DNA of 33,019 bases from a virus, in the IMG/VR virus record IMGVR_UViG_3300050821_001186, positions 1-33,019 of that record. One strand, given 5' to 3'. The first letter of the stretch is position 1, and each line of letters opens with the position of its first letter. The translations under genes were made by a program, and so were the position numbers. The notes under the pieces were generated by a model, which saw only the letters and a list, made by a program, of their open reading frames with translations, was not told where the DNA came from and did not search any database. This document shows, one piece after another, positions 125 through 6,424 of the stretch.

Positions 125-360
125 CTCCTCGCCCCTCCCGCCCGTTGACTGCCCCGCAAGCAAAGCGTCTGCGACCCGTCCGACTTGACCCACGCTACCT
201 CGTGCGGTTTGCATTGCTCGGCGGCGATCTCGCGCAGCGCCCGCGCATCGGAGCGCTCGACCCACGCACCCCAGGCAAACGCGACCGCCAGCATGAACAG
301 CGCGAAGGCCGCGACGCCGAGCCAGCGCTGCTTGCGGTCTTCTTCGTCGATGAGGGTCAT
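121..360 (-). CDS. Small single-span membrane protein
   Basis: A 79-residue protein with one strong hydrophobic segment at about residues 13-33 (WLGVAAFALFMLAVAFAWGA), an acidic/basic N-terminus of about 12 residues and a C-terminal domain of about 45 residues containing two cysteines. The topology suggests an inner-membrane protein with a soluble tail. I chose the ATG that overlaps the methyltransferase stop as ATGA; the frame stays open further upstream but that part lies inside the methyltransferase. Its own stop overlaps the next ATG the same way. It could be an accessory lysis, exclusion or envelope protein, but no family is recognised and the role is open. Confidence 0.65.
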   Translation of the reverse strand: MTLIDEEDRKQRWLGVAAFALFMLAVAFAWGAWVERSDARALREIAAEQCKPHEVAWVKSDGSQTLCLRGSQRAGGARR

Positions 361-989
361 GGCCGGTACACCCGAGCGATGTGAGTCGAGAGCGGCAGGG
401 GAATCTTGGCGACGATTGCGGAAGCCTGCAGCCTCGCGCGCGATCGGGACGAATGTTTTCTCATCGAATTGCCATGATGCCGTCCGAACCATCCGTCGCG
501 CGACATGCCGCCGCCCAAGCCGCAGACCTTGATTTGGCCGCCAATAGGCATCAGCGCCGGCACGTCGCCCCAAAGATGAAATGATCCGAAGTTCCACCGG
601 CTACGCCCGACCCACTTCTGAGCCCCGCGCACGTTCTCGACCACCATCGGGATGTGATAGCCCGCTGCCTCGCACGCCTCGCGCTGGATGCGAAAGCAGG
701 CGTCGAACAGCTCATTGTCCGGAGGCGGCAGCGCCTTGGAGCGCTTCCACGGCATCGCGCGGTAACTGTACGCTTGGCACGGCGGGCTCGCCACGATCAG
801 CACGGCCGACTTGAACTGCGATCCGTGCAGAGTCCGCACGTCCTGGATCACAAGCTGGGCCGGATACTTCTCGTCGCCGTAGACGTGGCGTTCGATGTCG
901 AATCCGATCACGTCGTAGCCTTCGAGTAGCAGGCCCTCGGTCCAGCCGCCGAGGCCGCAGTAGAGGTCGATAGCGAGCGGACGAGTCAC
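357..989 (-). CDS. C5-cytosine DNA methyltransferase
   Basis: A 210-residue enzyme expected to transfer a methyl group from S-adenosylmethionine to C5 of cytosine in DNA. Visible motifs are motif I (DLYCGLGGWTEG, residues 8-19), motif IV with the catalytic cysteine (SPPCQAYS, Cys71) and motif VI (ENV, residues 118-120). It is shorter than bacterial C5 enzymes (over 300 residues), with little room for a target-recognition domain and no clear QxRxR motif, like other compact phage forms. The start is GTG with GGGGGAGGGC just upstream, overlapping the previous stop as GTGA. No restriction endonuclease is nearby, so an anti-restriction role on phage DNA is likely. Function by family is firm; specificity is unknown. 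Confidence 0.88.
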   Translation of the reverse strand: MTRPLAIDLYCGLGGWTEGLLLEGYDVIGFDIERHVYGDEKYPAQLVIQDVRTLHGSQFKSAVLIVASPPCQAYSYRAMPWKRSKALPPPDNELFDACFRIQREACEAAGYHIPMVVENVRGAQKWVGRSRWNFGSFHLWGDVPALMPIGGQIKVCGLGGGMSRDGWFGRHHGNSMRKHSSRSRARLQASAIVAKIPLPLSTHIARVYRP

Positions 990-3592: not shown

Positions 3593-3730
3593 TCACCGCC
3601 CCAACAGCGCCCACCTGATGAACTCGTCGGCGTGCCCAAGCTGTCGCAGGTAGGAAATCGCGCGCATACAGCCGTTGCGTAGCGTGGACATCATGCTGCG
3701 GGCGAGGGTGACGATCTGGGCGAGGGTCAT
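3593..3730 (-). CDS. Unknown 45-residue protein, first gene of the leftward operon
   Basis: The protein starts MTLAQIVTLARSMMSTLRNG and looks like two short amphipathic helices with several arginines. AGGAG lies eight bases before the ATG, the clearest ribosome-binding site of the operon, and a strong sigma-70-like promoter is about 45 bases upstream. The frame is open further upstream, across the promoter, which argues for this ATG as the true start. Function is not recognised. Confidence 0.6.
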   Translation of the reverse strand: MTLAQIVTLARSMMSTLRNGCMRAISYLRQLGHADEFIRWALLGR

Positions 3731-3773
3731 GGTTGCTTCTCCTGTTGCGTTGTTCGATACATTCAATGTCGGC

Positions 3774-3802
3774 ACAGTAATCCCGCTTTTGTAGCTTGTC
3801 AA
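3774..3802 (-). promoter_or_regulatory. Sigma-70-type promoter for the leftward operon
   Basis: Read on the minus strand, TTGACA (3802-3797) and TACTGT (3779-3774) are separated by exactly 17 bases. The -35 box is perfect and the -10 box matches four of six. Transcription would start near 3767 and leave a leader of about 37 bases before the ATG at 3730. The -35 box lies inside an 11-base palindrome, so the promoter is probably controlled there. Confidence 0.7.
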
Positions 3803-3816
3803 GCCTTGTGTCAAGG
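3794..3816. promoter_or_regulatory. Two abutting palindromes, putative operator
   Basis: GCTTG-T-CAAGC (3794-3804) is directly followed, sharing one base, by CCTTG-TGT-CAAGG (3804-3816). Both contain the TTGACA / TGTCAA element and overlap the -35 region of the leftward promoter and the spacer of the rightward one. Such a tandem site between divergent genes is typical of a repressor or activator operator. The adjacent sigma-4-like gene is the obvious candidate partner (inference). Confidence 0.6.
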
Positions 3817-3823
3817 GTAGATT
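3796..3823 (+). promoter_or_regulatory. Possible rightward promoter overlapping the leftward one
   Basis: TTGTCA (3796-3801) and TAGATT (3818-3823) are 16 bases apart. A start near 3830 would leave only about 12 leader bases before the ATG at 3842, and no clear Shine-Dalgarno sequence is present, so the first message may be nearly leaderless. Weaker than the leftward promoter and occupying the same palindromes. Confidence 0.4.
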
Positions 3824-3841
3824 TGTGGTCCAATTCGCCGC

Positions 3842-4006
3842 ATGAGAGCCATCGACCGCTATGCCAAGCTCGCCGAACGCAGGCGTCAGATCCTTGCCTT
3901 AAGAAAGCAGGGTAAGACATTGGACGAAATCGGGAAACGGTACCGGATCACGCGCGAGCGGGTGCGGCAGCTGGTCCTGGTTGCGGAGCGGGAGAGCGCG
4001 GAGTGA
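3842..4006 (+). CDS. 54-residue helix-turn-helix protein resembling sigma-70 region 4.2
   Basis: The protein (MRAIDRYAKLAERRRQI...) carries TLDEIGKRYRITRERVRQL at residues 26-44. This closely follows region 4.2 of primary sigma factors, where the TLEEVGK...VTRERIRQIE helix-turn-helix reads the -35 box. Nothing else of a sigma factor is present, so it cannot be a complete sigma. The stop overlaps the GTG of the methyltransferase as GTGA. Likely roles are a small transcription regulator of the divergent promoters, an anti- or co-sigma, or an RNA polymerase modulator. Family resemblance is strong in the helix-turn-helix; the role is inferred. It is preceded by TTGACA-containing palindromes. Confidence 0.75.
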   Translation: MRAIDRYAKLAERRRQILALRKQGKTLDEIGKRYRITRERVRQLVLVAERESAE

Positions 4007-4977
4007 CCGCTTACGATAACCGCTGCCTTATCGGCGACTGCCGCGATTCAATGCACCAGATGATCGCGGACGGCGTGCGCGTGCAGATGTGCGTGACGAG
4101 TCCGCCGTATTGGGGCTTGCGTGATTATGGCCACCCAAAGCAAATTGGCCTGGAGCTGACCGTCCAGGAGTACGTCGATACGCTGGCGGGCGTGTTCCGG
4201 CTGCTGCGCGAGCTGCTGGCCGACGATGGGACGCTCTGGCTCAACCTCGGCGATTGCTACGCCGGGAGCTGGGGCGCTCAGTCACGCGAGCATGCTGGTA
4301 AACACGCGCCGAATGTGTCAGCGCTAAGTGCGAACCAAGTCAAAGCTGCGCAGATCCGCAACGGTACGGGATCGTTGGGACGCACTCCAGGGCTGAAGCC
4401 GAAAGACCTTGTGATGATGCCGGCGCGCGTCGCGCTTGCGCTGCAGGCTGACGGCTGGTGGGTGCGTCAGGACATCATTTGGAATAAGCCGAATCCCATG
4501 CCGGAGTCGGTCACAGACCGATGCACTAAGGCGCACGAGTACCTCTTCCTGCTCGCGAAATCAGAGCGGTATTACTTCGACGCCGCGGCGATCAGAGAGT
4601 CTGCGACGCACGTCGGTCGCGTCCTTAATTACACGGGCGATCAGAAGGCGAACAGCGCTCATCCGGAAATGCAGCGTACTTTGCCGCGCGGCCGAAAGAT
4701 CGAAGTAGGGGAGCGCCGCAATAAGCGCTCAGTCTGGACCCTACCGACATTTCCATATGCTGAAGCCCACTTCGCCACGTTCCCGCCCGCGCTCGTCGAG
4801 CCGTGCGTCCTGGCCGGCTCGCGCATCGGTGATACGGTGCTCGATCCATTCTTCGGTAGCGGCACGGTCGGCGAGGTCGCGCAACGGCTCGGGCGCAAGT
4901 GGATCGGCTGCGATCTGCAAGAAGCCTACGCCCCGCTGCAGGCTCGCAGGACCGCTCAACAGGGCTTCGAGCTGTAG
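4003..4977 (+). CDS. DNA N4-cytosine/N6-adenine methyltransferase
   Basis: A 324-residue SAM-dependent DNA methyltransferase. The catalytic motif TSPPYWGLRDYG lies near residues 32-43 (SPPY at 33-36) and the SAM-binding motif DPFFGSGT at 281-288, followed by GRKWIGCDL. This N-terminal catalytic, C-terminal SAM-site order is the beta-class arrangement; SPPY occurs in N4-cytosine enzymes and also in some N6-adenine ones. The region between (residues about 85-240) should hold target recognition. Start is GTG, coupled to the sigma-4-like gene by GTGA. No cognate nuclease is seen, so protection of phage DNA from host restriction is likely. Base specificity cannot be read from sequence. Confidence 0.9.
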   Translation: MTAYDNRCLIGDCRDSMHQMIADGVRVQMCVTSPPYWGLRDYGHPKQIGLELTVQEYVDTLAGVFRLLRELLADDGTLWLNLGDCYAGSWGAQSREHAGKHAPNVSALSANQVKAAQIRNGTGSLGRTPGLKPKDLVMMPARVALALQADGWWVRQDIIWNKPNPMPESVTDRCTKAHEYLFLLAKSERYYFDAAAIRESATHVGRVLNYTGDQKANSAHPEMQRTLPRGRKIEVGERRNKRSVWTLPTFPYAEAHFATFPPALVEPCVLAGSRIGDTVLDPFFGSGTVGEVAQRLGRKWIGCDLQEAYAPLQARRTAQQGFEL

Positions 4978-5807: not shown

Positions 5808-5999
5808 ATGTCCAGCCTTTTGGCTCTTCCCGTTTTCATCCCCGGCCGCCCGTACACGGCGTTGTCCGACCGTCCGCGCGCCGAGCACTTGCTGCGCGTG
5901 GCGAAGTTCCTGTGGGACGATGCGCATCCGGAGCCCAAGCCGGGCGAGCGGGCGCAGGCGTTTGCGGTGATGGCGCAGCGGCTGGGGGTGGCCGCATGA
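5808..5999 (+). CDS. Unknown 63-residue protein
   Basis: The protein begins MSSLLALPVFIPGRPYTALS and ends in a helical AQAFAVMAQRLGVAA. GGGAG with good spacing precedes the ATG, and its TGA overlaps the next ATG as ATGA. It is the first gene of the rightward replication block. No domain is recognised; it may be an accessory replication or regulatory protein, judged by position only. Confidence 0.6.
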   Translation: MSSLLALPVFIPGRPYTALSDRPRAEHLLRVAKFLWDDAHPEPKPGERAQAFAVMAQRLGVAA

Positions 6000-6424
6000 A
6001 CGTCGAGGATTTCCTCCTGCTGCTGAAGGGCGTAAAACCGGCCGGCAAGGATCGCTGGGTGGCGCGCTGCCCCTATCACAACGACCGAATGCCGTCGCTG
6101 GCAATCACCAAGGGCGACCGTGTGCCGATCCTGCTGCACTGCTTCGCTGGCTGCGATGTCGACCAAGTCGTGGGCGCCGTCGGGCTCGAGCTGTCAGACC
6201 TGATGCCGCCGAAGGATCCGCATTTCCGAGACGATCAGCGCGCACGCCTGGCAGTGCCTTTCACGCCAGAGCAGGCGCTGCGGTGTCTGTCGACCGAGTC
6301 CACGTTCATGTTCGTGACGATCTCGGAGATCACGCGCGGCAAGCCGCTCGACCAGCTCACCAAGGATCGTCTGATCGAGGCCGCGCGCCGGTTCGTCGAG
6401 GCCGATCGGATCTGCGGTGCCTGA
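5996..6424 (+). CDS. CHC2-type zinc-finger protein, primase-like
   Basis: A 142-residue protein with CPYH (Cys25, His28) and HCFAGC (Cys49, Cys53), the zinc-binding module of DnaG-type primases and related phage proteins, with the typical MPSLAI after the first pair. In primases this finger reads template DNA. The TOPRIM catalytic domain is absent, so this is a finger-only protein that probably works with the helicase gene overlapping it by eight bases, like the split primase/helicase modules of other phages. The start overlaps the upstream stop as ATGA. Zinc-finger call is firm; active primase function is unproven. Confidence 0.8.
   Translation: MNVEDFLLLLKGVKPAGKDRWVARCPYHNDRMPSLAITKGDRVPILLHCFAGCDVDQVVGAVGLELSDLMPPKDPHFRDDQRARLAVPFTPEQALRCLSTESTFMFVTISEITRGKPLDQLTKDRLIEAARRFVEADRICGA

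Follow-up and report, generated by a model that had tools for sequence, protein, structure and literature searches.

A stand-alone sigma70 region-4-like mini-protein gene beside a two-way promoter of TTGAC boxes: a putative early-gene switch in a P22-like phage record

Introduction

The repressor of the Cluster A mycobacteriophage L5 binds the asymmetric sequence GGTGG(c/a)TGTCAAG over its early promoter (PMC5712189), and repressors of the L5/TipsytheTRex type occupy their site as monomers (PMC9283540). For sigma70, which reads the −35 box through its region 4, R584, E585 and Q589 are reported to matter at this box (PMC8407463), and a list of 16 residues has been linked to it (PMC4943231). A stand-alone region-4 phage repressor was not found described in the literature, an absence that is weak evidence in itself. 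Here, we describe a locus at which a gene resembling this tip of sigma70 lies beside a two-way promoter built of TTGAC, and which is thus probably a tiny early-gene switch.

The locus and its setting

The window (the whole stretch of DNA analysed) is an IMG/VR virus record of 33,019 bp with a GC content of 62.5 % that carries P22-like portal, terminase, scaffold, major head, and DNA-ejection genes. No nucleotide-level match to it was found among isolated phages, and the closest portal of an isolated phage is that of Xanthomonas phage PBR31 (about 50 %). The features discussed below are as follows, with a gap of about 110 bp separating the leftward gene from the mini-protein gene:

3593–3730, minus strand: first leftward gene, 45 aa, kept across the divergent promoter in related phages
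3774–3779, minus strand: TACTGT, weak leftward −10 (3/6 match to TATAAT), 17-bp spacer
3794–3804, no strand: palindrome 1, GCTTGTCAAGC, which covers the leftward −35 box
3796–3823, plus strand: alternative rightward promoter TTGTCA-16-TAGATT
3797–3802, minus strand: TTGACA, leftward −35; box and 17-bp register recur throughout the six distinct regions
3804–3816, no strand: palindrome 2, CCTTGTGTCAAGG, which covers what is likely the rightward −35
3806–3834, plus strand: TTGTGT-17-TCCAAT, the likely rightward promoter (extended −10, TGG); its TTGTG aligns with TTGAC of the relatives
3809–3814, minus strand: second TTGACA (CTTGACA at 3809–3815), candidate operator box, no good −10 in register
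3842–4006, plus strand: stand-alone sigma70 region-4-like helix-turn-helix (HTH) gene, 54 aa, which opens the rightward early operon (from the ORF, Pfam, and homologues in the same position)
4003–4977, plus strand: N6_N4 DNA methyltransferase, its first 4 bp shared with the HTH gene; the neighbour in this place varies among relatives

In addition to this N6_N4 enzyme, a second methyltransferase-like gene lies at the left end of the window (357–989, minus strand; PHROG DNA methyltransferase, E 1.5e-12).

The mini-protein

The 54-residue sigma region-4-like protein proposed by an earlier, sequence-only reading proved correct in coordinates and sequence, and it matches Pfam Sigma70_r4 (PF04545) above the cut-off (39.6 bits as compared to 24.1, E 3.8e-10). 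Alignment to E. coli RpoD revealed that 12 of the 16 listed −35 residues are kept, as are all three of R584, E585, and Q589 (R38, E39, and Q43 of the mini-protein). In contrast, only two of six core-binding residues of region 4 remain, with E555, F563, I565, and L598 missing; none of the seven mini-proteins has the five-residue RpoD loop to which F563 and I565 belong, and the protein of the window ends before the C-terminal tail of sigma. The retention of −35 residues together with the loss of four core-binding residues favours a competitor that touches DNA only, so that plain competition is preferred over the remodelling of RNA polymerase that the sequence-only reading had also offered.

AlphaFold predicts a three-helix HTH (pLDDT 85.8) that resembles sigmaA region 4 on −35 DNA (1ku7, 3n97). 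HTHs of DeoR and HetR fit it equally well, however, and stand level with sigma in the VIA ranking, while a Foldseek search with the model gave no match at E ≤ 0.001; the family is thus not settled by the fold alone. Most tblastn matches to the mini-protein were larger sigma genes. A cellular origin was considered and set aside: the matches of a single genome scan (residues 10–44) were mostly from actinobacteria and apparently primary sigma factors, so that neither a host nor a prophage relative was obtained.

Relatives and the conserved module

Relatives were gathered by scans with the terminase, portal, helicase, methyltransferase, and small leftward gene, and related phages among the matches listed were L062, L063, L067, L310, L311, and the G004 record. 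In all but the last, a homologue of the leftward gene faces a divergent HTH gene of about 47–63 aa in the same position, L311 being 96 % identical to L067. The same layout recurs in L308, an apparently unrelated phage that came from the HTH search alone and whose leftward gene lies outside the homologue comparison. Leftward gene, divergent promoter, and mini-HTH hence form a conserved module in the window phage and these five relatives, and also in L308; in L064, L065, L066, and L151, no mini-HTH was found. The divergent region of L308 further contains an inverted repeat, TGACAGCC / GGCTGTCA, and a TAATAAT stretch (1526–1585).

The gene downstream of the mini-HTH is less constant. Overlap with a methyltransferase in the window, and the same neighbour in L067, might suggest a controller gene of the C-protein kind known from restriction-modification, but the place is taken by a GIY-YIG-like ORF in L063 and by a helicase-like ORF in L311, and L062 and L310 have other genes there (by-eye descriptions); the genes examined included none recognised as a restriction enzyme. 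As the methyltransferase is not conserved in this position, we rejected this candidate, which appears very improbable.

The divergent regions share a second trait. Every one that carries a mini-HTH (the five relatives, L308, and the window) has two or more TTGAC/GTCAA boxes inside 30 bp. Of 139 other divergent regions of phages, a control set drawn from fetched loci with crude ORF calling, a single one does. The box-bearing regions comprise six distinct ones from perhaps two or three lineages. As the few relatives are not independent of one another, we attach no P value to this difference. When the regions are aligned, the TTGAC boxes are the landmarks; among the relatives, the gap between the converging boxes amounts to 0, 2, 9, 12 bp or more.

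The pairing of gene and boxes is not strict. Proteins of L063, L308, and L014 pass the Sigma70_r4 cut-off, and those of L062, L067, and L310 fall below it, so that in these three phages and L311 (by its identity to L067) the boxes accompany HTHs that Pfam does not rate as sigma-like. Conversely, the unrelated phage L014 encodes a 57-aa protein like that of the window and has no TTGAC pair just upstream. By eye, the sequence upstream of its gene (5998–6168) looks tRNA-like and ends in CCA.

Palindromes or −35 boxes

As had been described from the sequence, two abutting palindromes with TTGACA lie in the gap of the window. GCTTGTCAAGC and CCTTGTGTCAAGG are perfect with 5-bp arms, and each has its TTGACA on the minus strand. 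Inverted repeats with arms of at least 5 bp and loops of at most 4 bp number three in these 110 bp (0.26 expected, P 0.001, post hoc). Across the window, TTGACA is not enriched (9 vs 9.9 expected), and CTTGACA occurs twice (2.9 expected), both times in this gap. A genome-wide regulon was discarded, as the rest of the window has TTGACA and variants of the palindromes no more often than chance would give.

The sequence-only reading had proposed that the protein binds these palindromes, probably as a dimer, and had named related phages with the gene but without the palindromes as a finding against it. Its core survives this check, since gene and boxes are both kept in the five relatives and L308. 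The exact palindromes are not kept; the conserved unit is therefore a back-to-back pair of −35 boxes with variable spacing. This variation makes a fixed dimer operator unlikely, and the half-sites in the window, about 5 and 8 bp apart, leave too little room for a pair of ordinary HTH units.

TTGAC is exactly the −35 sequence that sigma70 prefers, and the boxes may thus exist for sigma alone. According to this main rival explanation, they are mere −35 elements of two strong back-to-back host-sigma70 promoters, the mini-HTH acts from other DNA or on other genes, and its likeness to sigma is that of a generic HTH. The leftward promoter is in keeping with it: TTGACA with a 17-base spacing to TACTGT is present as claimed, albeit with a weak −10 whose 3/6 match accounts for its absence from the automatic promoter scan, and from the leftward box to a hexamer of the form A....T (A2, T6) the distance is exactly 17 bp in all six distinct regions, which identifies the box as a −35 element. 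Rightward boxes likewise stand 17 bp from TA..AT in L062, L067, and L310, and 18 bp from TCAAAT in L063. The several paired HTHs below the Pfam cut-off and the equal fit of DeoR and HetR also speak for this rival. The rarity of box pairs in the control set argues against boxes made for sigma only, as do the retained base-reading residues of region 4.2 and two boxes out of −10 register, namely the second TTGACA of the window (best −10 a 4/6 match at 15 bp that lacks the A2/T6 anchors) and the rightward, plus-strand TTGACA of L308, which has no good −10 in register. On balance, we consider this explanation rather unlikely, albeit a serious competitor.

In L062, L067, and L310, the ATG follows the rightward −10 by 6–8 nt, and their rightward mRNAs are probably nearly leaderless. 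The window fits the same pattern: its TTGTGT (3806–3811), a poor consensus match, is followed by TGG-TCCAAT (3829–3834) that ends 7 nt before the ATG, which would leave its mRNA almost without a leader. On the leftward side, the leader TTGTTCGATAC.TTCAATGTCGGCA (3749–3774), upstream of the leftward gene, is nearly identical in L323/L310 (G007), with the adjoining promoter spacer diverged, and is possibly a conserved leader element.

Weak promoter elements could also invite an activator, i. e., a mini-protein at the −35 that recruits or stabilises polymerase and so switches the direction of transcription. The leftward −10s are mostly weak (3/6 in the window, L062, L063, and L308) and the rightward −35 of the window is poor, but the protein has lost E555, F563, I565, and L598 for contact with core, and its occupation of the −35 would itself exclude sigma region 4. 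Such a role is improbable.

A relative with a different regulator

The G004 record is close to the window phage in terminase (83 %) and portal (80 %) and keeps the leftward gene, but a 79-aa HTH, whose Xre-like matches are weak, replaces the mini-protein. Its divergent region has lost the pair of TTGAC boxes, and one leftward promoter, TTGACA-16-TATTGT, remains. From sequence, this looks like a swapped regulator–operator cassette. The consensus TTGACA beside an unrelated HTH also serves the explanation of sigma-only boxes, since a single TTGACA evidently needs no region-4 protein.

Proposed function

The reading that we tentatively prefer, at a little short of even probability, is that the mini-protein is a pared-down sigma70 region 4.2 that contacts DNA only and would act on the TTGAC boxes as a Cro-like early autoregulator. 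The gene lies at a divergent promoter as the first of its operon, and the gene content suggests early timing. Early in infection, host sigma70 polymerase would fire from the back-to-back promoters in either direction. With rising amounts, the mini-protein would occupy the TTGAC boxes of the shared −35 region, probably with one monomer per box, and would thereby block sigma region 4 and damp leftward transcription as well as its own. Binding, repression, timing, and stoichiometry are what we infer here.

If the protein binds the boxes, it would rank among the smallest phage switches. The proposed function, if true, would offer a clean case in which the −35-reading domain of sigma is reused alone as a repressor, a simple one-domain model of competition at a −35 element, and a means to recognise early control regions of uncultured P22-like phages. 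More speculatively, and with doubt prevailing, there may be a whole class of phage repressors made of region 4.2 only, which would silence promoters by taking the −35 in the fashion of sigma without touching polymerase, occur in more than one phage lineage, and be exchanged as cassettes with Xre-type regulators.

Comparison with known systems

With region 4 of sigma70/sigmaA (PF04545), the mini-protein shares the sequence family, the base-reading residues, and the fold. Unlike a sigma factor, it is devoid of regions 2–3 (−10 recognition, melting), of the five-residue loop, of four of the six core-binding residues, and of the C-terminal tail. Lambda-type Cro is likewise a small HTH encoded by the first gene of an early operon that faces a leftward one, and there, too, regulator and sites are exchanged between relatives (here apparently in G004). 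Cro belongs to another sequence family, however, and the window record, which may be partial, gave no match to an integrase, to HTH_3, or to an S24-type repressor.

Repressors of the L5/TipsytheTRex type differ by a second (Stoperator) DNA-binding domain, reaching residue 181, and by some 24 genome-wide sites, as compared to 54 aa, one three-helix HTH, and only two CTTGACA in the 33-kb and possibly partial record studied here. They are, in turn, phage HTH regulators with an asymmetric TGTCAAG site over an early promoter (PMC5712189, PMC9283540), and TGTCAAG is contained in both sites of the window. By analogy, the repressor of mycobacteriophage L5 is the closest precedent for the mini-protein.
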